48,931 nt of DNA from an uncultured Butyrivibrio sp. Lineage in GTDB: Bacteria; Bacillota; Clostridia; Lachnospirales; Lachnospiraceae. Numbering within the stretch: the stretch's first letter is position 1; each line of letters starts with the position of its first letter. A program made the translations under genes and the position numbers. Below the pieces are notes generated by a model, which ran no database searches, was not told where the DNA came from, and worked only from the letters and a program-made list of their open reading frames with translations. This document shows positions 6,780 to 42,781 of the stretch, piece after piece. The stretch covers positions 1-48,931 of the forward strand of contig CAMORK010000014.1 in the NCBI GenBank assembly GCA_946623755.1, in the 5' to 3' direction.

Positions 6780-9152
6780 CTATCTGAGTCTTATGTCAGT
6801 CAGTGCAACGCGATCACCGGTAAGAGCCACATAAATCGCGGCCGGATTTTCTTTTATCACAGTAGTATTTTCAATGTAAAGACCGAGATTCTCCGTAGTC
6901 GTAATAACACTGTTGCCCTTGCGCTCAAAGGTAACTTCACACTCTACGCCTTCCTTATTTTTATCTTTCCATTCCTCCCACCCGGGGAAGTAATCCTTCT
7001 TTTTCATGATGAACTCATTATCGGAATAATTGTCTTTTATTTCATTTTCTCCATTGAGTTTGATCAATGCATACTCATGGTAATTATTACCGAATACCTG
7101 TCCGTCATCCGAAGAATAAATGGCAATATACGGGCAATGCCAGATAAAACTTGCCACCGGCAGGCTCACCGTATGGAATTTGATCCTGAGCTTGTTCTTA
7201 AGCTCTATACCCTCGGTTGCCGCTGAACGGGTCTGACTGATCTGGATATTTTTTAAATCCGACTCCATATGATCGATATAACTTATTTCATCCGAAATTC
7301 GAGGTACAAAGTTTTCATCTACATCCTTATCGGTCTGTTCTATTGTTATTTCGCTTATGTCACAGTTTTCACCTGTAATCCCGATATAAACTGACGTTGA
7401 GCCGTCCGTCAGAGCTAAGATGTCTTCTTTCTCGTAGTCCGGTCCCCTCATTACAACCTTAAGATGATCATCATACTTTCCGGCAATTATCTCATATTCA
7501 TCAGCCTTCAGTCTTTCATAGCCGGCAGCCTCATCAAGCTTAATCTCTTTGATCTTTCTGGCACTGGTACAAATATTATGGTCATCAAACCATATCTCTC
7601 CATACTCCTGATAGTGATATGCTGTTATGGATTTTTTATTGTCATGCACACGTCGGTCATATGAATCAAACAAAATAATGGACGGTGCTGTAAAGCTATT
7701 TGTTGGATCCTTTGCCGGCACGGATTTAAATCTGATCCTGATAATCTGTCCTCCGACAGGAATACCCATGGAAATTGCATCCCTGTATGTGCGACAGGTA
7801 AGCTCTTTTTCCACAAGGGACAGATCATCATGGCTTCTTCCGCTCGATTCCTCATCTATGATCTTAACCATGATCCCGGCAAACTCAGGGTCAAATTCAA
7901 TACCGGCCCCCTTTACAAATGCTTCTCTGGCTACAAACTCCGGCTTTGCATCACGATATCTTTTCCTGGATGTCATAGTAACATATGCATCAGCAACCGC
8001 AATGATCCTGGCAATCTCCGGTATATCCTCTCCCTTTAAGCCTTCCGGATATCCCGTTCCGTTATATCTCTCATGGCTGTAATATGCTCCGTCGCTTAAG
8101 AACGGATATTCTTTTATATTTTCCAGTATCTCTTTTCCGATAACGGGCTTTTGTCTAAATGTTTCGATGTCCCACTTACCGGGGTCCTCCTCATTCTTGA
8201 TGACAGAATCCGGGATTCCTATAAGGCCGACATCATGAAGCAATGCTGCATAATATGCCTTTTCACAATGGTCCTCATCAAGTCCGCAACGAGCTGTTAT
8301 CTTTCTTGCATATTCTGCCACTTTAACCGCATTGCCCTTTGCAAAGTCATCCTTTTTTTCTACGGCAGACACAAAAGCTTTTGCTGTCTGGTCAAAAAGC
8401 CTCTGCATACGCTTTTGCTCACCCTGCATATTCTGAAGTTCAAGATTATGAGCATGCTCCACCGTATCATTTATATCAAGATATGCAAATATATACAGAC
8501 TGACAGAAACCGCTACCATTGACATATTAACTATGGAGATTCCATAGGTAAATATCTGCAATATGCCACATATGATCGGCACAAAGATGTATAAGATCAT
8601 TGAAAGATAGATCAGTCTGCTGAAGAACTTTTTATACTGCCTTATCACTGTATACTGTACGATTGGGCAGATTATAGGGATGATATAAGCTATTAAGAAG
8701 CCGCGTCCCCTATGATACGTATTGGTCGCATCAAAATAATAATACAGGTTGGTGAACGCTCCTATTACCGCCAGGACCATACCAAAGAAAGATACTACTC
8801 CAACCACATCCAGTCGCTTAGAGGTAATTCTGGCCTTATTTTCTTTTTCAACCCCCAGCAGATTCTTAAGGTAAATATTAAAAGCAAAGACGACCCCTGA
8901 TGTCAGCACGAATACAGCACAGTTGCTAAGCCTTACCATTACATAGCCTTTGTGACTGATATCTCCTGCGTAAATATAAGCCAGCCTGTCAAACCAAAGC
9001 AAAGCAAAGGCTATAACCTCCATGGTAATAAGCGTCCACTTCATCTTCTTATCCATGAACTTTGTGATAAGCAAAAGAATGGCCATCATTCCACATGCCC
9101 CGCACAAAAGGAGCATCATATTAAGTTGATATGTCCTGATAAATTCGACCAT
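6780..9152 (-). CDS. Membrane HD-GYP protein with degenerate metal site and duplicated C-terminal module
   Basis: About 790 residues. Residues 1-235 hold seven or so membrane segments of a sensor type, followed by a short coiled linker and an HD-GYP domain (~260-430). The HD (ALLHDVG), the HE and GYP of SHERYNGTGYP and the VAD Asp are present. Residues that are normally metal-binding His are replaced: GNAVKV where GHSxRV is usual, RQKPVIG where KxHPxxG is usual, and SHE where HHE is usual; the Lys after HD is Leu. Phosphodiesterase activity is therefore doubtful. Residues ~455-790 are two related beta-rich repeats ending TSVYIGITG...DISEITI and AAIYVALTG...ALTDIRL. The ATG at 9152 follows AAAGGA; a TTG one codon upstream is less likely. 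It is 11 bases from the preceding response regulator gene. Confidence 0.88.
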   Translation of the reverse strand: MVEFIRTYQLNMMLLLCGACGMMAILLLITKFMDKKMKWTLITMEVIAFALLWFDRLAYIYAGDISHKGYVMVRLSNCAVFVLTSGVVFAFNIYLKNLLGVEKENKARITSKRLDVVGVVSFFGMVLAVIGAFTNLYYYFDATNTYHRGRGFLIAYIIPIICPIVQYTVIRQYKKFFSRLIYLSMILYIFVPIICGILQIFTYGISIVNMSMVAVSVSLYIFAYLDINDTVEHAHNLELQNMQGEQKRMQRLFDQTAKAFVSAVEKKDDFAKGNAVKVAEYARKITARCGLDEDHCEKAYYAALLHDVGLIGIPDSVIKNEEDPGKWDIETFRQKPVIGKEILENIKEYPFLSDGAYYSHERYNGTGYPEGLKGEDIPEIARIIAVADAYVTMTSRKRYRDAKPEFVAREAFVKGAGIEFDPEFAGIMVKIIDEESSGRSHDDLSLVEKELTCRTYRDAISMGIPVGGQIIRIRFKSVPAKDPTNSFTAPSIILFDSYDRRVHDNKKSITAYHYQEYGEIWFDDHNICTSARKIKEIKLDEAAGYERLKADEYEIIAGKYDDHLKVVMRGPDYEKEDILALTDGSTSVYIGITGENCDISEITIEQTDKDVDENFVPRISDEISYIDHMESDLKNIQISQTRSAATEGIELKNKLRIKFHTVSLPVASFIWHCPYIAIYSSDDGQVFGNNYHEYALIKLNGENEIKDNYSDNEFIMKKKDYFPGWEEWKDKNKEGVECEVTFERKGNSVITTTENLGLYIENTTVIKENPAAIYVALTGDRVALTDIRLR

Positions 9153-33072: not shown

Positions 33073-33369
33073 TTATTTTCCCTCCAGATCAGCCACTCTC
33101 ACAGGTTCTCCGTTAAGAAGGATATATCCCTTTGGAAGCTGGGACGCGTCAGCCATGGAAGTGTAATGATTCTTTTCATGTTTGTGAGGCATCGTTCCCG
33201 AATCATTTCTGGACGACTTTTTATTATAGGTCTCGTACACATTAGCCGGCTTGTGCTGATGAGGCATTGCCCCGGAGTTATTTGTGTTTATCTTATTAAT
33301 CTTATTTTTTCTGCTGATGATCACAATTGTAATGATCACTACAATGACTACACTCAGCAAGTCTTCCAT
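33073..33369 (-). CDS. Small membrane protein with duplicated SGxMPHxH motif
   Basis: A 98-residue protein with one N-terminal hydrophobic helix (LLSVVIVVIITIVII) followed by a basic stop (SRKNKINKIN), so the rest is likely cytoplasmic. The tail contains the same short motif twice, NNSGAMPHQHK and NDSGTMPHKHE, each followed about seven residues later by a Tyr. It ends with a short conserved-looking stretch (KGYILLNGEPVRVADLEGK). The paired His residues could bind metal. I do not recognise the family. Excellent GGAGGAG precedes ATG 33369, and it is one base from the glycosyltransferase gene. Confidence 0.8.
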   Translation of the reverse strand: MEDLLSVVIVVIITIVIISRKNKINKINTNNSGAMPHQHKPANVYETYNKKSSRNDSGTMPHKHEKNHYTSMADASQLPKGYILLNGEPVRVADLEGK

Positions 33370-33411: not shown

Positions 33412-34230
33412 TTATTTCATTGCGTCCTCTTCAAGGTCGTAGCTTATCTCATCAAGTTCTGCATGGTAGAACTCCGACCAGCTGTACTGGTTCATGTAAT
33501 CGCCCATGTACTTGTATTTGGAATCATTCCCATTGTCCAGCCAGTCATAGAGGTCACACTCTATCCTGTCTTTGGCAATAGCCATGCTCCCTCGCTGTTT
33601 TAGAAGGATTCCATCCAGCTTCAGTTTATTAAACGTATTCTGGAGATCCTGTCTTAAATTACACAGATATGAAAGCTTCTTTTCCGGATCGCCATCATCT
33701 TCCCACAAGGAAGCAATGATCTCACCGTTTGTAGTCTGGGCTCCTCTGTTGTTGATAAGAAGAGCAACGATTTCTTTGGTCCTCTTATACTTAAATTCCA
33801 CTGGCTGCCCATCGACAAAAAGCTCAAAGTTTCCAAAGGTCTGAGCAAATACTCTCTTAATCTTTTTACGCATCTCAGGATATCTGAGTGAATCAAGCTC
33901 ATTCTGAACTTCCTTGTCATTTCCGGGCTTTTTCAAATATCCGCTGGCATGAAGTTTCATGGCTTCATACGCATAATCGGTATCCTCAGTAAGATATATA
34001 AGGTTTACGTATGGATTCAGCTCTTTTAAATACCTTCCCAGATCAATACCCGAAAGTTCGGGCATTTCCACATCAAGAAAAGCCACATCTATTTCTTCTT
34101 CACGGGCTTTAGCCAAAGCTGAAAGAGATTCTTCGAAGAAATAACATGTAGCATCAGGTAATGTCTTTTGCAAAATACCTTTTATTTTTTTTAAGGAGGC
34201 GCTGTCGTCGTCTACTGCCAGTATTGTCAC
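33412..34230 (-). CDS. Response regulator with SARP-type DNA-binding domain
   Basis: A 272-residue predicted transcription regulator. Residues 1-125 are a receiver with acidic AVDDD, phosphoacceptor Asp in FLDVEMPE (about 53), YLTED and YLKKPG. Residues ~135-225 are a winged-helix of the OmpR/SARP type (FGNFELFVDGQPVEFKYKRTKEIVALL), and the remainder is a short helical part of the bacterial transcriptional activator region. Start GTG 34230 overlaps the upstream stop (GTGA) with AGGAGG just before it. It has no cognate kinase next door; it belongs to the partner-switching run and could translate that switch into transcription. Confidence 0.9.
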   Translation of the reverse strand: MTILAVDDDSASLKKIKGILQKTLPDATCYFFEESLSALAKAREEEIDVAFLDVEMPELSGIDLGRYLKELNPYVNLIYLTEDTDYAYEAMKLHASGYLKKPGNDKEVQNELDSLRYPEMRKKIKRVFAQTFGNFELFVDGQPVEFKYKRTKEIVALLINNRGAQTTNGEIIASLWEDDGDPEKKLSYLCNLRQDLQNTFNKLKLDGILLKQRGSMAIAKDRIECDLYDWLDNGNDSKYKYMGDYMNQYSWSEFYHAELDEISYDLEEDAMK

Positions 34231-34745
34231 TGTTCACCTCCTGCTGTAGGTAAAGTAATGGATTTAACCTTCTGATTTTGTCTCTGCTCTGCTGTCATGT
34301 GCAGTGGATCAGCTTCTCCTACCACCAGAGTATCTCCATCATTCAGGGCAGCATCATGAAGCGGGCCACAATTCATGTCGGCCAGCACCAGAGCTGCAAA
34401 TCTGTCATAATTATCATCATCTATAACAGGAAAATGGTACTTCATGCGATACCAGTGCTCCGGGTCATACCCCGTCCCTCCGATATATAGCCTGTCAGCG
34501 GTATCTGCGACCTCATCCACCCCCGCTTTATCGCCGGGCTCAAGTCCTGCTTCTTCACAAAAAAGAACACCATAAGCCTTCAGGATTCTGTCCCTTACGG
34601 TCTCATCGCTTCCGCTCTTATTCTTCCTTCCGGTCGGAGTATCCATGACTTGATAAAAGAAGTCCTGAGCCTCTTCACTATCATCGAAGTGCACGATTGC
34701 ATCAAAAAACTGCTTAGGATCGATGTCTTTTGCAATTGATGCCAT
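34227..34745 (-). CDS. Soluble acidic protein of unknown function in the partner-switching operon
   Basis: A 172-residue protein that I do not recognise. It has no membrane segment or signal. The composition is acidic, with helical stretches and a central aromatic/acidic region (GYDPEHWYRMKYHFPVIDDDNYDRFAALVLADMN is its core, 34-base-pair-free of known motifs). It has GGGGGG upstream of ATG 34745, follows the GHKL kinase gene by 14 bases, and overlaps the response regulator by four bases. Strict coupling to both neighbours suggests that it is a dedicated partner of the switch, for instance an adaptor or effector. Confidence 0.75.
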   Translation of the reverse strand: MASIAKDIDPKQFFDAIVHFDDSEEAQDFFYQVMDTPTGRKNKSGSDETVRDRILKAYGVLFCEEAGLEPGDKAGVDEVADTADRLYIGGTGYDPEHWYRMKYHFPVIDDDNYDRFAALVLADMNCGPLHDAALNDGDTLVVGEADPLHMTAEQRQNQKVKSITLPTAGGEQ

Positions 34746-34759
34746 TTATATCCCCCCTT

Positions 34760-35170
34760 CTATGCCCACGAATACCCCATGCTGAAGATGTTCTTGCCAT
34801 CTTTACGTTCATAGCTTGTCTTATCCATGCTTTTTTTCACGATAAAAATACCCAGGCCGCCGATTTCTCTTTCCTCCGCGGACAAGGTTACATCCGGATC
34901 CTCTTTAGCCAAAGGATTATAAGGAATACCCTCATCAATAAAAGTAATTGTTACATAGCTGTTGGCAGGGTCAGTATCCACCTCAATCCTGCAGCTTCCG
35001 CTCTTATCCTCATAGGCATAGCTGGCTACATTGACGAAGATTTCCTCTACGGCAACATCAATCTGCATCTGTCCTTTCATGGAACATTCAGCTTTTTCGA
35101 GTTCTTCATCAATAACGGAAAGAAGCTGAGGCAGATTTTCAACTTTTGCATCCAATACTATTTCTCTCAT
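34760..35170 (-). CDS. GHKL anti-sigma-type serine kinase (RsbW/SpoIIAB-like)
   Basis: A 136-residue single-domain Bergerat-fold ATPase. The N-box is VAVEEIFVNVASYAY (Glu and Asn present), the D-box FIDEGIPYNP, and the glycine-rich lid IGGLGIFIVKK. Proteins of this family bind and phosphorylate a STAS antagonist and sequester a sigma factor or other target. The matching STAS gene is immediately upstream, and no sigma factor is encoded nearby. The ATG is at 35170. Its Shine-Dalgarno (AGGAT) lies in the loop of a small hairpin, which may limit translation. Confidence 0.92.
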   Translation of the reverse strand: MREIVLDAKVENLPQLLSVIDEELEKAECSMKGQMQIDVAVEEIFVNVASYAYEDKSGSCRIEVDTDPANSYVTITFIDEGIPYNPLAKEDPDVTLSAEEREIGGLGIFIVKKSMDKTSYERKDGKNIFSMGYSWA

Positions 35171-35190: not shown

Positions 35191-35220
35191 AGGCAAAAGG
35201 CATAGTAATGCCTTTTGCCT
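35191..35220 (-). terminator. Intercistronic hairpin between STAS and kinase genes
   Basis: A perfect 13-bp stem (AGGCAAAAGGCAT with its complement) and a 4-base loop lie 17 bases after the STAS stop. On the minus strand the following bases are ATTTCTTATAGG, a poor U-tract. It is therefore more likely a partial terminator or an mRNA-stabilising hairpin, giving more STAS than kinase message. Confidence 0.7.
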
Positions 35221-35237
35221 GTACTATATGCAACAAT

Positions 35238-35534
35238 TCATTCGATTGTGAGAATGTCTACGAAACCTGTTACTTCAAAGATCTCGTTAATCTCCTCGCT
35301 AACGTTCCTGATCACCATACTTCCCTGCTTATTCATGACCTTCTGAGCTGAAAGCAGCACTCTGAGTCCTGCGGAAGAAATGTACTCAAGTTTTGTGAAA
35401 TCAAACTCCAGCTTCTCAACCCCATCGAGGCTACCCTTAAGCTCATCATCAAGCTGAGGCGCGGTTGTAGTGTCGAGTCTTCCTGCTAATGAAATAGTAA
35501 GATCTTTCCCATTTGCTACTTTGTTAATTGTCAT
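35238..35534 (-). CDS. STAS-domain anti-sigma factor antagonist (SpoIIAA/RsbV-like)
   Basis: About 98 residues, a single STAS domain. It has GRLDTTTAPQLDDEL in the first half and the phosphorylatable Ser in YISSAGLRVLL, the usual site for the partner kinase. In the dephosphorylated state such proteins bind the kinase and release its target. I chose ATG 35534 because GAGGAG lies ten bases upstream; the longer GTG start would overlap the preceding gene region without a better site. The tandem pseudo-GHKL gene lies 27 bases upstream and the kinase gene 67 bases downstream. Confidence 0.92.
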   Translation of the reverse strand: MTINKVANGKDLTISLAGRLDTTTAPQLDDELKGSLDGVEKLEFDFTKLEYISSAGLRVLLSAQKVMNKQGSMVIRNVSEEINEIFEVTGFVDILTIE

Positions 35535-35561
35535 TGTGCTATTTCTCCTCTCTCTTTGCAC

Positions 35562-36773
35562 TCAAGAATTGAGTCCGTATACCATTGTAATATCTATTCT
35601 ATCACCTTTTACCCCAACAAGAACATCCTTGGCCAGGCTGGCAACGATAGACTTTTCAAGTTCATCCCATGCCTCTTGCGCACTGGGATCTGTTCCCTGT
35701 TCATTTCCAAGAGATTCTCTGTAATCACTCAGGGACCACATGATTCCGGGATCTGAACTTCCTTCCATTATACCGTAAATTCCCATAGAACCAAAGCTTA
35801 CATATCCGGTTCCATACTGCTGCTGCAGCTTCATAACCTCAGAATAATTGAGAAGTCCGTTTTCAACAACATCACTGACTTTACTCATAAAGCCCTTAAC
35901 GGCGCTATTGCCTTTATCTGTTGATACTGTCAAAAGATCTTTCTTCTTGGCTGCATCCATCAAAGTCTTTGCAGTAAGCTTAAGACAGCATACATTCTTG
36001 TATTTCTCAAGCCATATCTCTGCACGGAAGTCAGCAGTCATAGCCTTGAGCATTCCGATAGTCTCTTCAAACAGCAGCTTCAAATGAATTGCATCCTTGG
36101 CAGAGACATCCAGCTCCTCAATCAGTTCATCAGCTCTGGCATAAATTTTGCCTTCATCGATCTTGGAACTGTCAACAAACGTGAAGTCACTCTTTGCAAC
36201 AGGAACTCTTGAACCGATAGCTCCGAGAGCTTCAGAGAAGTCCTTGGTAACTACCATTTTAATATCATCTTTACCTACACCAACTTCAATATCATCAGCC
36301 AGATTAGCAACCAGCGATCTCTCCAGGTCATCCCACGCTTCCTGGGAATACTTGTCCTCTTCCTTTCGGCGTCTTAATTCCTCCTGATATTCCTTAAGGG
36401 ACCACTTGCTTGTGCCCGGAGCATCCATTACGAACAGCGATCTCAGCTTTCCGAAGAATCCCTGCTCTACGCTGTTTTCTCCGGTTGTTGATACAGAGAT
36501 CAGTTCATCCTCTCTGGTCTTGTCCATATGATTCTCGGCTGTCAGATATATCTTGGTAACCCTTGAATTACCTTCAAGCCAAAAATTCATAATTCCATAT
36601 CCGATTATTGATTTTGCCAGACGAAGAACTTCTTCTGAGAGAAGTCTTAGCCTTAAGGCATCTTTGCCTTTGATCGCCGTATCAAAGATGTAGTTCTCAA
36701 CTACTTCCTGAGCCACGTCCATCTTGGATTCGAGATTGGCAATCTTAATGTGCTCTGATTGAACGAAACGCAT
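35562..36773 (-). CDS. Tandem degenerate GHKL-like protein (two ~190-residue repeats)
   Basis: A 403-residue cytoplasmic protein made of two related halves. In each half a helix LRLLSEEVLRLAKSI (LKLLFEETIGMLKAM in the second) stands where the kinase N-box should be. Next come a strand KIYLTAE/CLKLTAK, then TVSTDKGNSAVKGF-like and KWSLKEYQEEL-like segments, and a closing helix/strand pair LERSLVANLADDIEV/LEKSIVASLAKDVLV. This order parallels the GHKL kinase encoded downstream, but the N-box Asn, the DxG and the glycine lid are gone, so ATP use is unlikely. I infer a duplicated pseudokinase, perhaps a docking partner for the STAS protein. Strong GAGGAGGGGG precedes ATG 36773; it is the first gene of the operon. 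Confidence 0.75.
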   Translation of the reverse strand: MRFVQSEHIKIANLESKMDVAQEVVENYIFDTAIKGKDALRLRLLSEEVLRLAKSIIGYGIMNFWLEGNSRVTKIYLTAENHMDKTREDELISVSTTGENSVEQGFFGKLRSLFVMDAPGTSKWSLKEYQEELRRRKEEDKYSQEAWDDLERSLVANLADDIEVGVGKDDIKMVVTKDFSEALGAIGSRVPVAKSDFTFVDSSKIDEGKIYARADELIEELDVSAKDAIHLKLLFEETIGMLKAMTADFRAEIWLEKYKNVCCLKLTAKTLMDAAKKKDLLTVSTDKGNSAVKGFMSKVSDVVENGLLNYSEVMKLQQQYGTGYVSFGSMGIYGIMEGSSDPGIMWSLSDYRESLGNEQGTDPSAQEAWDELEKSIVASLAKDVLVGVKGDRIDITMVYGLNS

Positions 36774-36847: not shown

Positions 36848-39562
36848 TCATCCTCTTCTGGCTCTTCTCTTATATTTAACAAGATTTACGAAGCATATTA
36901 CTGCCAGGATAAATGAAAGGAATGCAATTATAACCACTCTGAGTACAAGCTTGTTCACATTTACCGCTTCATAAGCGATGGCATATTCTGAGAATCTGTC
37001 GGTCCTGAATGTAACTGTATTGGGATCATTTCCTATGTCCTCAAGAACATCAACCACACCGTTATGATTTCTTATAACAAAGAACTTCCTGCCATCCTTC
37101 CTGTATTTCTCAGGGATAGGCACAACTACTTCCAGTTCCGCAGAAGTATTGTTGATAACAGATGTTGTCCCATTGCTGGTCTTCATAATAAGGAAGTCAA
37201 AGTAGCTTACAGGCCTATATCCGATCTTTTTCTGCATCTGCTCCTTTATTCCGGCATCGACAGTCTCTGTGTTTTCTGTGATGTCAATATTGAAAGAAAC
37301 AGGTGTCCCGGTCAGAACCTGATATTTTTCTTCCGATGTGAGGGTTTCAGCTATAACATCTTCAAAGTTAATGAGCGTGGGCTGAGAGTAGTAAAGCTGT
37401 ACTGCCGTCTCCTGCTGGTCTTCGGCATAAGTATTGTTTACCGTTATCTGAAGAGTACCATCCTCAAACGCCTCTCTGAGCATTGGAAGAACAGCATCAT
37501 CTTCAATAAGTATTCTTAGCGTAGTCTCATCAATATTGTGTTTTGCCATCACGCTGCCGGCCATAACTGCAGTTGGTTCCTCTGTAGTCTCCGGTTCTAC
37601 CGCCTCAGTATAGACATCCTCTGCATACTGCTCTTCATCCAGAACTTCAACCTTCTCCGGAACTGCCTCGTCAACTACCTTCTGCTCAGCTACAGCTCCC
37701 TCTGCAGCGGTCTTCTCGTTATATTCAGTCTTTTCCTTTTCTGCAGCCTGAGCTTTCTGATTGTCGGAATTCTTTTTGGTGGTTGTCCCTGCAGTATTTG
37801 ATTTCTTCGGCGCCTCCGGAATCTTCTCAAAACTTGCGGTAATACTGTGTCCGCCTTTTATATTGTTGAAGGTGTAGCTGGAAACAGCTCCAATATTTTT
37901 ACCATCCACTGTTACAGCTGTGATCCTGTAGCCACTCTGAGCCATAATGCTGTAGGTTACACTGCTTCCCTCGGGAATATCAAAATCACCGCTTGGAGAT
38001 ATTATTCCACCGGTATTGGTAATACCTGCTGTGACTCTGTATGTTGGAGTGTTTTTCTTCATAAAGTTGGCAACAACATTAACGTCGCTTTTAATATGTT
38101 CAATTGTATAATTATTGTCTCTTGAAACCGTCTGGCTGTTAATGGTCCATCCTGTAAATTCATATCCGTCATACGCCTGGGCACGAAGCACTACTTTATC
38201 GCCCTTATTGTATGTGCCGGCTCCTTCATATTTACCGGTATCCTGAGGATAAACAGATACATTCACCGTACATCTGTCTCTGTTAAAAACAGCTGTTATG
38301 TTTCTATCTGTTGTAATATTGTTAAGCTCTATGGAAGGAGCATCGCTTATGGTCTTGTTATCCTCAACAAAACCTGCAAAGCTGTATCCGTCATTTGCTT
38401 TTGCGGTAATAGTCATCTTTCCGCCATACGGTACACTCTGACTGCCTGTTACAGATCCACCGTCACCGTTATTTACGCTTGTTCTTACATAACAGGATTG
38501 TCTTTCAAATTTTGCTACAAAGGTATGATCCTCAGTTACATTATTGATCGGAGTCTGCCCTGAGTTTGAGATTAGTGTGTCTCCTTCGTACCAGCCGGTA
38601 AATACGTAATTGTTATTAGGCGATGCTGAAATAGTGCAGCTTCCGCCATCTCTTACCACTCCGCCTCCGGCAATCGCTCCGCCTTCAGCCGGCTCGGCTT
38701 TTACGCTGATGACATGATCAACAGCCACCACTGTGATCACGCCTCTGTTTGCTATTGAAGGATCCTGTATCGAAGTTGCCACCACTGCAAATGTCGTTGC
38801 TGTCTCGTTAGGACTTACCGTGACTGTTCCGTTCCCGTCAACCGTTGTGCCTGTACTCTGATTTCCTGCAAGTGACCATGTAACAGTCGGATCATAATCA
38901 TTTACGCCATTTACATTAGCATCAAAATCAAAGCTTTTCCCAATCGGTATTGTTGCTGATGAAGGTATAACATTAACAGATGTGATATACGGTGCGTTAT
39001 CTACAACGGTAACCGATATGTCTACAGTTGCAGTATGATGCCTTCTGTAATCGTTTTCCGAAAAGAATGTATATCTTGCCTGATATGTACCGGGTTCAAG
39101 GTCTTCATACGGAGCCACCGAAAACAGTATCGACTCCTGAGGTCCAATATAATTGTCCTCAGCCAAGTATCCCACATCAAATGCTGTATAGGGATCAATC
39201 TCTTCCCAGGTAAGAGGGAAAGTGGTGGTTCCTATATTCACAATTGAAAACTGCTTGGCATAGACTACATCACCGGCATTTACTTTTCCGAAATTGATCG
39301 TTGGAGTATAGCAGGCCAGATTATAATCAAAAGGGTCCGACTCGGGATCAGGCTCGGGCTGCGGATCAGGCTCGGGCTGCAGATCAGGTCCGGGGTTCGG
39401 CTCGGGATCAGGCTCAGGATTAGAAATGTCCAATACATTATTGGTATCCGGATATTCCTCCGCATAGGCGTGGATAATCTGAATTGCTGTTGCACTTGTA
39501 AGCACAAAGCAGATCGCAAGGAGCACCGCGCAAATCCTTAGGACAACCTCTCTCTTTTTCAT
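36848..39562 (-). CDS. Large membrane-anchored surface protein with Ig-like and repeat domains
   Basis: About 904 residues. There is an N-terminal signal peptide, then a Pro/Glu/Asp stalk (repeated PEPDP) and a beta-sandwich resembling ASPM/SPD-2/HYDIN domains (TINFGKVNAGD). An Ig-like domain (SSATIPIGKSFDFDANV) follows, then four tandem ~75-residue repeats of the bacterial InlB-B/Flg_new type (GYSFAGF, GYEFTGW, NYVFTGW, GYRITAV patterns, each ending in AxF). A Lys/Glu/Ala-rich linker leads to a further domain, one transmembrane helix and a basic tail (KYKRRARRG). No LPXTG is present, so anchoring is by the helix. I start at ATG 39562 (MKKREVVL), preceded by GAGGTGA. Adhesion or cell-surface interaction is the likely role. 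Confidence 0.88.
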   Translation of the reverse strand: MKKREVVLRICAVLLAICFVLTSATAIQIIHAYAEEYPDTNNVLDISNPEPDPEPNPGPDLQPEPDPQPEPDPESDPFDYNLACYTPTINFGKVNAGDVVYAKQFSIVNIGTTTFPLTWEEIDPYTAFDVGYLAEDNYIGPQESILFSVAPYEDLEPGTYQARYTFFSENDYRRHHTATVDISVTVVDNAPYITSVNVIPSSATIPIGKSFDFDANVNGVNDYDPTVTWSLAGNQSTGTTVDGNGTVTVSPNETATTFAVVATSIQDPSIANRGVITVVAVDHVISVKAEPAEGGAIAGGGVVRDGGSCTISASPNNNYVFTGWYEGDTLISNSGQTPINNVTEDHTFVAKFERQSCYVRTSVNNGDGGSVTGSQSVPYGGKMTITAKANDGYSFAGFVEDNKTISDAPSIELNNITTDRNITAVFNRDRCTVNVSVYPQDTGKYEGAGTYNKGDKVVLRAQAYDGYEFTGWTINSQTVSRDNNYTIEHIKSDVNVVANFMKKNTPTYRVTAGITNTGGIISPSGDFDIPEGSSVTYSIMAQSGYRITAVTVDGKNIGAVSSYTFNNIKGGHSITASFEKIPEAPKKSNTAGTTTKKNSDNQKAQAAEKEKTEYNEKTAAEGAVAEQKVVDEAVPEKVEVLDEEQYAEDVYTEAVEPETTEEPTAVMAGSVMAKHNIDETTLRILIEDDAVLPMLREAFEDGTLQITVNNTYAEDQQETAVQLYYSQPTLINFEDVIAETLTSEEKYQVLTGTPVSFNIDITENTETVDAGIKEQMQKKIGYRPVSYFDFLIMKTSNGTTSVINNTSAELEVVVPIPEKYRKDGRKFFVIRNHNGVVDVLEDIGNDPNTVTFRTDRFSEYAIAYEAVNVNKLVLRVVIIAFLSFILAVICFVNLVKYKRRARRG

Positions 39563-39621
39563 AATTCTCACCTCTTCTTTCAGCATATATCTTTACAGTT
39601 CACTTTATTCTACTAAAACTT

Positions 39622-39687: not shown

Positions 39688-40452
39688 ATGTATATAAGTG
39701 TTAATAAACACATTCTATCAAGAGCGATCATGTCCGTGGCCATTGTTAAGCTGATTGCAGCTGTACTGGAAGGTGTTGTACGTTTCTTTCTTGAAAAGAA
39801 CAATAGCTCAAGCCCTGATATGCTGGACATCATGCTATGGCATTCCCAGCTCATCATATCCCTTCTGCAAATTGCAATAACGGCCGTTATTTTCTTTGTG
39901 ACCTGGAAAAGACTCAACCACTATGTAAGCGTCATTCCCCCGGAGGATCGCAAGAGTATGGGAGATCTTCAGAAGGAATACTTTGGTGAAAACATCGCTT
40001 CCCTTTCCGTGTCATCAGTAAACAGGCTTCTTCAGCTTTGGGCTGTGATCTTTGTCGCTGCGGAACTCACTTATCTTTTCACCTCCATAATGTACAGAAG
40101 ATTCATAGGAATACTTATGGATGCACTTTCCAACGGAGAGGCTATGACCGACGGAACATTTATCATGCTCTACAACATGACCCACGGCTTTAAATATCTT
40201 GAAATCCTATCAGCTATACTGCTTGGCGTTGTAATGACAGGTATTTTTTTAAATGACCGCTATATCAAACTCGGATCATTGGCTATACTGCTTCTGTTTT
40301 TGATTTCATTCGGAGCTATCCAGATGCAGACCGTAAATCTGATGGGAAGAGAAATCGGTATTGTCTGGACGTCTCTTATCTATCATATTACTGAAACCCT
40401 TGGTCTGGCTCTGCTGTCTCTTTATCTATCCGTCAGATATAAAGGGCTTTGA
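39688..40452 (+). CDS. Multi-spanning membrane protein of unknown function
   Basis: A 254-residue protein with about six hydrophobic segments and a hydrophilic loop (IPPEDRKSMGDLQKEYFGEN) between the second and third. I do not recognise the family. It has the proportions of a small multi-helix membrane protein and shares a general plan with the 166-residue protein encoded opposite. GGAG precedes ATG 39688. Its last 31 bases overlap the end of the convergent gene at 40422, an antisense overlap. Confidence 0.75.
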   Translation: MYISVNKHILSRAIMSVAIVKLIAAVLEGVVRFFLEKNNSSSPDMLDIMLWHSQLIISLLQIAITAVIFFVTWKRLNHYVSVIPPEDRKSMGDLQKEYFGENIASLSVSSVNRLLQLWAVIFVAAELTYLFTSIMYRRFIGILMDALSNGEAMTDGTFIMLYNMTHGFKYLEILSAILLGVVMTGIFLNDRYIKLGSLAILLLFLISFGAIQMQTVNLMGREIGIVWTSLIYHITETLGLALLSLYLSVRYKGL

Positions 40453-40983: not shown

Positions 40984-41023
40984 AATGGACGCCCCTAAAC
41001 ATCATCATTCAAGGTCGTCCATT
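40984..41023 (-). terminator. Candidate terminator overlapping the end of the ANTAR gene
   Basis: AATGGACG (40984-40991) pairs with CGTCCATT (41016-41023), with partial pairing further inward. On the minus strand the hairpin includes the last codons and stop of the ANTAR gene and is followed by TCTTAATTT. The U-tract is interrupted, so efficiency is uncertain, but the position at the end of the nitrogen operon is right. Confidence 0.5.
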
Positions 41024-41592
41024 ATTCTTTCTGCTGCTCTGCGCCTGGATATTCCTTCGTTCATGGCGCAGCTTCCTATGAACCTGTGCGCTTCATCCTC
41101 AGTCATGGCTTTCTTTTCGATTAAAAGAACCTTTGCACGGCTTATTATCTTAACTTCCTCCAGCTTTTCTTTTGCCAGGGAAATTTCTTTTGAAAGCTTC
41201 TGTATCTTATTCTGTACAAATATAAGGTATCTGATCGACTTATTTAAAAGCCCTCTCTGAAACGGCTTCTGAATAGCTAAAACCCCTAAATCTGTGACTC
41301 TGTCAAGCACATCCCCATATATATCCGGGGTGGTTACGATCAGTACGCTGATGTTGGAATCCTCTGCAATGTCCAACGCCAGATCAATTCCTGAGTCATC
41401 CGGAAGAGGCGCATTGATCACAACAATATCATAGTACCTTTCCAAGATGCTTCTCCTGGCCGAACTCGCGCTTCTAAGGAAGTCAATCGTCATAAAATCT
41501 CCTTCAGGAAGCGACCTCTTAACCACCGGGTCGAATTGCTCCGATCCGGATACTACCAGCAGGGAGTGCTGAAAGTCATCCTTTCTTGGCAT
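41005..41592 (-). CDS. ANTAR-domain RNA-binding regulator with non-phosphorylatable receiver
   Basis: A 195-residue predicted antiterminator. Residues 1-125 follow a receiver fold, but the acidic pocket (VVSGSE where VVDDD is usual) and the phosphoacceptor (Asn-60 in VVINAPLP) are lost; the KP lysine remains. A coiled linker leads to the C-terminal ANTAR domain (SRAKVLLIEKKAMTEDEAHRFI then SRRRAAERIM), which in this family binds paired hairpins in leader RNAs. GGAGG precedes ATG 41592, 13 bases after glnA. ANTAR proteins next to glutamine synthetase usually control nitrogen genes. Control without phosphorylation, such as by a partner protein, is inferred. Confidence 0.9.
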   Translation of the reverse strand: MPRKDDFQHSLLVVSGSEQFDPVVKRSLPEGDFMTIDFLRSASSARRSILERYYDIVVINAPLPDDSGIDLALDIAEDSNISVLIVTTPDIYGDVLDRVTDLGVLAIQKPFQRGLLNKSIRYLIFVQNKIQKLSKEISLAKEKLEEVKIISRAKVLLIEKKAMTEDEAHRFIGSCAMNEGISRRRAAERIMDDLE

Positions 41593-41605
41593 GGCAATCC
41601 TCCAA

Positions 41606-42781
41606 TCAATGACCCATATATGCTCCTATGAGATCCTCAGGTACAAACTCTTTTACAAAGCTGCTCTCAAGAGCCAACGCCTCTGCTTCTTTCTTGGACT
41701 TCGGTAAAAGAATGGCATCCAGATTTGTCTTCTCAGAAAGCACCATACGATTGTTGATCCCGTACAGTCCCGCCCTGATGAGCAGTGCATAGACAAGATA
41801 AGGGTTACTGAGAGCATCAGGGGAACGAAGCTCAACGTGTGTCCTGCCCTTGTATGTCTCAACAAACATAAGCTCGGATTCTCCCGCATCCGACCAGTTA
41901 ACTTTATCCGGTGCCAGGTTATTGCCAAGTCTGGCATAGGATTCAGTACTGGGATTCATGAAAAGAGTGATTTCCCTTATCTTTTCCATGATTCCTGCCG
42001 CCGCGAAGCCTGCCACATCATTGCCGTCCTTGTCATCCGCATAGATATTGATGTGATAGCCGTTTCCGGGTTTGCCGGGAAGAGGAACAGGAGAAAAATC
42101 CGAGACCAGACCGTATCTGTCAGCTATGGTACTTACAACCATCTTGAAGGTGGTCATCTGATCAGCAGCCTTTAAAGGTTTTCCGTAGTGAAAATCAATC
42201 TCGTTCTGTCCGGGGCCATGCTCGTGATGACTTCTCTCGGGAGTCAGCCCCATTTTTTCTATTGTAAGACAGATCTCACGTCTTACATTCTCGCACCTGT
42301 CAGCCGGTGCGATATCCATATAACCTGCAGTATCATAAGGGATCTTGGTAGGATTTCCGGATTCATCCTTGTTAAAGAGATAAAACTCCGTCTCAGAGCC
42401 GAACCTGAATTCAATCCCTTCTTTTTTGGCCTCTTCCACTGCCTTTTTTAGTACATTCCTTGTGGATGAAAGTATTTCCTGCCCGTCTGCACTGTAAACA
42501 TCACAGAACATGCGTAGTACTCTTCCGCTGTCCGGCCTCCACGGAAGAACAGCCAGCGTTGAAGGATCCGGCCTTAAATACAGCTTGGCGTACTGGCTGC
42601 CCCTGAATCCGGCAATCTCCTTTGCACTTATGGGAGCTCCGTCCTCAAAGGCCTTTTTCAGCTCCCCCGGCATGACCGAAATGTTTTTTTGCACACCAAA
42701 AGCATCACAAAATGCAAGCCTGATAAACTTGGCATCTTCCTCTTCAACGTATTTAAGAACTTCTTCAACTGTGTACTGCAT
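41606..42781 (-). CDS. glnA: Glutamine synthetase family protein, short form
   Basis: A 391-residue protein with glutamine synthetase order: beta-grasp N-domain (IRLAFCDAFGVQKNISV), GSETEFYLF (metal Glu), HHEHGPGQNEIDFHY, GNGYHINIY (the usual GxGxHxH region, altered), NLAPDKVNWSD and HVELRSPDALSNPYL (Arg/Glu). It should make glutamine from glutamate, ammonia and ATP. The length is about 50 residues under the usual type I (~440), mostly from the C-terminus. It lacks an obvious adenylylation-loop Tyr. AAGGAGG precedes ATG 42781. The placement after gltBD and dapL supports ammonia assimilation, though a related gamma-glutamyl ligase cannot be excluded. Confidence 0.85.
   Translation of the reverse strand: MQYTVEEVLKYVEEEDAKFIRLAFCDAFGVQKNISVMPGELKKAFEDGAPISAKEIAGFRGSQYAKLYLRPDPSTLAVLPWRPDSGRVLRMFCDVYSADGQEILSSTRNVLKKAVEEAKKEGIEFRFGSETEFYLFNKDESGNPTKIPYDTAGYMDIAPADRCENVRREICLTIEKMGLTPERSHHEHGPGQNEIDFHYGKPLKAADQMTTFKMVVSTIADRYGLVSDFSPVPLPGKPGNGYHINIYADDKDGNDVAGFAAAGIMEKIREITLFMNPSTESYARLGNNLAPDKVNWSDAGESELMFVETYKGRTHVELRSPDALSNPYLVYALLIRAGLYGINNRMVLSEKTNLDAILLPKSKKEAEALALESSFVKEFVPEDLIGAYMGH

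Follow-up and report, generated by a model that had tools for sequence, protein, structure and literature searches.

The window analyzed here is a 48,931-nucleotide stretch of DNA from an uncultured Butyrivibrio sp. (contig CAMORK010000014.1 of assembly GCA_946623755.1, a genome that is 60% complete), and our subject is a minus-strand gene cluster headed by an open reading frame (ORF) at 35562-36773. Its 403-residue product is built of two repeats, which we term pseudo-GHKL (pG) domains: pG-A (about residues 1-180; 36237-36761) and pG-B (about residues 193-403; 35580-36194). This tandem layout, proposed in an earlier note made from the letters alone, was confirmed by self-alignment of the two halves (score 217, whereas none of 500 shuffles exceeded 68), by a profile of single-domain relatives that covers nearly the full length of each half (7.0e-44 for B and 1.1e-40 for A) and by an AlphaFold model. 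The two downstream genes named in the same note were likewise recovered, namely a STAS anti-anti-sigma-like protein with the serine motif YISSAGL (ORF as listed 35238-35561, minus strand; PF01740, 1.6e-15) and a GHKL serine kinase of the RsbW/SpoIIAB type whose N-box, DxG and GGLG motifs are all intact (34760-35170, minus strand; PF13581, 6.7e-22). The likely start codon of the STAS gene is the ATG at 35534, giving 98 residues, because its close relatives in L050-L054 (L-numbers label loci with pG) have that length. Judged by their sequences, the STAS protein with its serine motif and the GHKL kinase in the cluster are features of partner switching. Between these two genes lies a hairpin with a 13-bp stem and a 4-nucleotide loop (35191-35220, minus strand; z -4.9 against shuffles), kept in L050 and L051, which may be an attenuator or processing site and could set the STAS:kinase ratio; as it separates the two genes, expression of the kinase may be uncoupled from that of the pG-STAS pair.

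In the AlphaFold models, the secondary structure elements of each half follow the GHKL order, and the modeled halves have the Bergerat/GHKL fold of the anti-sigma subtype. Structure prediction and structural search of the repeats thus agreed with the fold suggested in the earlier note, and another fold was not found; structure comparison of the pG models also matched a SiaB-like fold. The assignment rests on the structure models, as the fold was left undecided by profile-profile comparison on its own. In those comparisons, A2 against A5 gave P 0.0064 across 134 columns, A3 against A5 gave P 0.077 and A4 against A5 aligned the last strands only (P 0.025); a narrower pG profile against GHKL gave P 0.0022, and the reversed controls gave 0.29, 0.17 and 0.35. 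No match was returned by a PDB sequence search with A2, the PHROGs matches were weak only, and the top match in the viral structure library was a histidine-kinase-like phage protein (E 2.9e-3). Neither the window protein nor any scanned pG relative, 34 members in one scan, gave a HATPase match over the curated cut-off. The Pfam sequence family of SiaB, which we take to be DUF6272, was also absent among the matches of the window protein and the scanned relatives.

Kinship of pG with STAS was considered and rejected. The profile of 99 pG domains matched the last 25 STAS columns with P 7.7e-05, better than it matched GHKL (the narrower profile, P 0.0065), and the match was traced to pre-domain columns filled by few ORFs. 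These include an ORF of L031 (9064 bases; 7593-8372, minus strand) where a contig piece ends, in which a C-terminus that looks STAS-like by eye runs in frame with the start of a pG domain; as this ORF leaves the pG frame afterwards, it is probably a broken or badly assembled STAS-pG stretch.

Motifs were counted in 99 non-redundant pG domains, cut from 127 by word overlap. The loss of the N-box Asn reported in the earlier note was complete, the aligned column being hydrophobic throughout (M 74, L 23, F 1, V 1; Asn 0/99); an EE...N pattern occurs 12 times in pG sequences (an earlier count gave 11 sequences), never at that column. The glycine lid GG(L/V)G, present in all 31 GHKL kinases from the same loci, was found in none of the 99 domains, although a looser G-x-G within the 55-residue lid segment occurs in 49 of them, so that "no glycines" would overstate the loss. 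D-x-G was found in the tested segment of six domains. In contrast to these losses, a Glu that precedes the Asn column by four residues is kept in 99/99 domains and corresponds, in a profile alignment of both N-boxes, to Glu49 of RsbW; once 4 is added to the chain index, the RsbW numbering of Arg23, Asp42, Lys44, Ser48 and Glu49 agrees with this alignment (own count). In the part of the RsbW-RsbV study accessible to us, Glu49 contacts Ser56, the phosphorylated serine of RsbV (PMC7340262). The main ATP-binding parts are therefore gone, and the residue that meets the STAS serine is retained. A WSLxxY stretch is also near-invariant (W in 96/99, Y in 93/99).

The gene neighborhood was studied in the best 80 of at least 446 loci, mostly from Butyrivibrio, Pseudobutyrivibrio and other Lachnospiraceae, plus one or a few records each under the titles Eubacterium, Oscillospiraceae, Peptostreptococcaceae, Clostridiales and Synergistales. 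These loci are not independent (L052-L054 are one strain, and L065 and L086 overlap on one record), and neighbors were labeled with small profiles built from the loci, not with Pfam, leaving out unlabeled ORFs of less than 90 residues. A same-strand STAS gene adjoins pG in 60 of the 80 loci (23/26 tandem and 37/54 single-domain), against 5 of 407 control genes lying at least four genes from any pG, counted without regard to strand; homologues are therefore not placed at random with respect to STAS. A GHKL kinase lies within three genes in 32/80 loci and a PP2C phosphatase within five in 24/80, and in L100, L105 and L106 the gene order is PP2C, pG, STAS, pG, GHKL. The tandem treated as the unit in the earlier note is real in the window and in 26/80 loci, but the single domain is commoner (54/80). 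In the window's own genome, another STAS gene is followed immediately by a further pG, this one of a single domain, and four strong SpoIIE/PP2C phosphatase matches lie elsewhere. Altogether, pG is a family of its own, with no Pfam or NCBIfam match, mostly single-domain and often beside STAS. Literature searches found no description of it, subscription papers being mostly outside their reach.

Across genomes, pG matches were found in 60 of 79 genomes of the genus (a set that includes genomes behind some of the 80 loci), in 12 of 200 genomes of a family sample searched with the tandem profile, in 34 of 295 of the order and in 4 of 398 of the phylum, of which two belong to the same genus as the window. 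Within the genus, the GHKL kinase is present in 58 of the 60 carriers versus 7 of the 19 non-carriers (Fisher 7e-8, and 9e-5 within the 47 better genomes, shared ancestry being ignored in both).

The earlier note had stated that no sigma factor lies nearby. This is correct for the window, as the three sigma-70 region 2 matches of its 60%-complete genome are all on other contigs, but not for the family: the gene of an extracytoplasmic function (ECF) sigma factor of 161-162 residues stands directly before the tandem gene in 6/26 tandem loci (L062:6432-6917, L052:6486-6974 and relatives). Such a gene lies within four genes of pG in ten of the 80 loci, L065 and L086 sharing one, against 0/269 control genes at a distance of five or more. 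An ortholog is found in 26 of the 60 carriers of the genus versus 0 of the 19 non-carriers (Fisher 1.7e-4, and 0.02 in the 47 better genomes, again ignoring shared ancestry). The window's genome, with its 60% completeness, has no close ortholog, distant relatives only (best E 8.5e-10), and 33 further carriers of the genus gave no ECF sigma match at 1e-25. A sigma link throughout the family was accordingly rejected, 34 of the 60 carriers being without it, including genome G210, listed as 99% complete. Outside the 80 loci, an ECF sigma relative adjoins pG in L024, within a cluster (L024:1283-10911) of several STAS genes, pG, the sigma gene, a diguanylate cyclase, a SiaA-like phosphatase and a GHKL kinase, which suggests a cyclic di-GMP output at that locus.

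At ten loci, pG is the C-terminal domain of MscS-type proteins of about 455-485 residues, identified by Pfam MscS in L028-L030 and by a profile built in this analysis in L198-L204. A search with one of these fused pG domains returned eight proteins, seven with a precomputed MscS domain and one without any listed.

With regard to the origin of the tandem, a tree was built from 120 of the 127 pG domains after removal of identical rows; several long branches make its deep placements unsure. The 24 A halves of the Butyrivibrio and Pseudobutyrivibrio tandems form one long-branch clade (support 100/100), the 24 B halves fall together with four single-domain genes in a clade of 28 rows (support 100/97), and L092 is a separate tandem. 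One recent duplication was rejected on these grounds, and the duplicated dead kinase of the earlier note, understood as a single duplication, is not borne out: A and B halves come from different lineages. From these placements, tandem or flanking pairs seem to have arisen more than once. RsbW forms dimers through alpha1 and beta1, according to the accessible portion of its structural description (PMC7340262), and repeated pairing of pG would by analogy fit a dimeric unit.

Taken together, these results lead us to favor, with some reserve, the view that the 403-residue protein joins two catalytically dead domains of the RsbW/SpoIIAB fold in one chain and acts as a non-kinase binding partner of the neighboring STAS protein. 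From the computed fold, motif loss, Glu retention, gene linkage and co-occurrence we infer binding to STAS, its dependence on phosphorylation and the nature of the target. The serine of STAS would be phosphorylated by the GHKL kinase (34760-35170) and dephosphorylated by a PP2C phosphatase of the SpoIIE type. Unphosphorylated STAS would dock on the pseudo-GHKL protein in such a way that its serine faces the kept N-box Glu; docking, blocked by phosphorylation, would free or alter whatever the pseudo-GHKL protein holds. The target would depend on the locus, being probably the adjacent ECF sigma factor where one is encoded and the channel itself in the MscS fusions. The kinase and target-binding jobs, both carried out by RsbW alone, would thus be split over two proteins, and the pseudo-GHKL protein probably reads the STAS switch instead of setting it. 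A wider proposal, which we put forward only tentatively and hold to be less likely than not, is that pG is a general STAS reader that ties one kinase/phosphatase/STAS cassette to outputs unrelated to each other, ECF sigma factors when free and MscS gating when fused.

Several results weigh against a STAS-reading dead kinase. Regarding the fold, (i) the best Foldseek E-values were 1.3e-3 and 2.6e-3, none reaching 0.001 or less, (ii) the mean predicted local distance difference test score was only 69-72 in both AlphaFold models, with poor lid regions, (iii) in the structural search with the tandem every RsbW-type row covers the first half, and (iv) the 99-domain profile matched GHKL weakly (P 0.0014, probability 17.7%). 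At the interface, the position of Asp42, another RsbW contact, is His or Arg in 94/99 domains, so the RsbW surface is not simply conserved. As to linkage, no phosphatase or sigma factor adjoins the tandem gene in the window, STAS, GHKL and PP2C are all absent from the tested range at 12/80 loci, and among the ten MscS-fusion loci only L029 has a STAS gene within two genes, a single pG standing between them (in L028 it lies five genes off on the opposite strand). Besides, the six sigma-adjacent tandem loci represent four strains only (three loci being from strain FCS014), seven pG-less genomes of the genus have the GHKL kinase, and the P values for both co-occurrences take no account of shared ancestry.

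Among the other explanations, the one that survives best, which we nevertheless consider unlikely, is a dominant-negative partner of the kinase, in which the dead domains would use beta1 and alpha1, as in RsbW-type dimerization, to pair with a GHKL subunit, which they would inhibit or tune. The RsbW dimer face described above would provide the surface, and an overexpressed RsbW3 was suggested, in the excerpt of the Mycobacterium smegmatis work available to us, to inactivate RsbW1 as a heterodimer (PMC7693655); the presence of the kinase in nearly all carriers of the genus also agrees with it. On the other hand, STAS is the commoner neighbor (60/80 adjacent, compared with 32/80 for GHKL within three genes), the tandem, or the pG genes flanking STAS in L100, L105 and L106, could pair with themselves, and the kept Glu lies at the STAS contact, off the dimer face as far as PMC7340262 was accessible. 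Somewhat more doubtful is the simple decoy, an idea already raised in the earlier note, which would soak up STAS to set a threshold and have no target of its own. Loss of catalysis with retention of the serine-contacting Glu, and the tight linkage to STAS, are what such a protein would display, whereas the MscS fusions and the adjacent ECF sigma gene of some loci suggest an output attached to the domain, and the near-invariant W and Y of WSLxxY may mark a second ligand. Compared with a decoy, a target-side partner accounts at least equally well for the invariant serine-contacting Glu, the fusions to MscS and the loci with an adjacent sigma gene. That pG has remained an enzyme comparable to SiaB, be it an unusual kinase or a nucleotide binder, with its motifs rebuilt, is very improbable given the hydrophobic residue at the Asn position and the absent GG(L/V)G in 99/99 domains, the real GHKL kinase encoded next door and the matches of 34 members, which include no HATPase family.

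Around the core cluster, other genes recur with pG. Downstream on the minus strand follow a 172-residue protein without known family (34227-34745), a relative of which precedes the response-regulator gene in L050, L051 and L074, and, overlapping it by 4 bp, a response regulator with a receiver domain and a weak Trans_reg_C match below the cut-off (33412-34230). In L074 this pair adjoins a PP2C phosphatase, a hint that it is part of the same signaling set. Next comes a 98-residue protein with an N-terminus that is hydrophobic by eye (33073-33369, minus strand); in L050 and L051, too, the cluster has relatives of this protein downstream. Directly upstream of the tandem gene is an InlB-type repeat protein of 912 residues (36848-39586, minus strand; family within four genes of pG in 9/80 loci), and divergent from it a 254-residue protein, hydrophobic by eye and with no Pfam match over the cut-off (39688-40452, plus strand; 8/80 loci at the same distance); the recurrence of both near pG could point to an envelope output. 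A group of genes for proteins of about 725 residues (L089:4764-6941 and relatives), of which the one member scanned is an ABC transporter, lies within four genes of pG in 21/80 loci. Farther along the window, at 41005-42781, a receiver-ANTAR regulator stands beside a gene that resembles glutamine synthetase by eye.

What is new here is a dead-kinase family of its own that no profile matches, regularly paired with STAS, occurring in tandem form and, in some members, fused to MscS. It regularly neighbors the genes of serine partner switching in Lachnospiraceae of the rumen and gut and in a number of other bacteria, where, to our knowledge, the targets of such STAS/PP2C/GHKL sets are mostly unknown. 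If pG reads STAS phosphorylation, it would offer a handle for finding them, ECF sigma factors and MscS channels included, and would be a natural case of a kinase fold retained for binding after the loss of catalysis; if the general STAS reader holds, a mechanosensitive-type channel would be a direct output of serine partner switching.

Compared with known systems, pG resembles RsbW/SpoIIAB (PF13581) in fold, element order, N-box Glu and genetic link to STAS, and differs from it in lacking both the N-box Asn and the GG(L/V)G lid, in its length of about 180-210 residues, in the absence of a profile match and, in the window, in being a tandem with no adjoining sigma gene. The LvrC-type response regulator domain (9qih) and the ChpT and 4qpj phosphotransferases differ from pG in that they belong to two-component signaling. 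Partner switches can drive outputs other than sigma factors, as described for SiaABCD of Pseudomonas aeruginosa in the accessible part of PMC7647112; SiaB shares with pG an RsbW-like fold and a PP2C-controlled partner switch, but is an active kinase of SiaC, while pG has a STAS (PF01740) partner and a kinase encoded by a separate gene. CapK/CapS and VapK/VapS are likewise GHKL-STAS pairs with other outputs, according to the portion of PMC13373217 available to us. The closest precedent is the SigF switch of M. smegmatis, in which, to judge from the sections of PMC7693655 that were accessible, RsbW1 binds SigF, only RsbW2 phosphorylated RsfB, and RsbW3, an antagonist acting via RsbW1, did not phosphorylate it, so that kinase (RsbW2) and target-binding (RsbW1) roles are split. 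A dead kinase as third member, held in the earlier note to be a non-standard arrangement, is hence not without parallel among RsbW homologues, and its recurrent link to STAS and GHKL genes stands. In those sections the mycobacterial proteins are described as RsbW homologues, whereas pG forms a family apart that has no profile entry and often occurs in tandem or fused to MscS.
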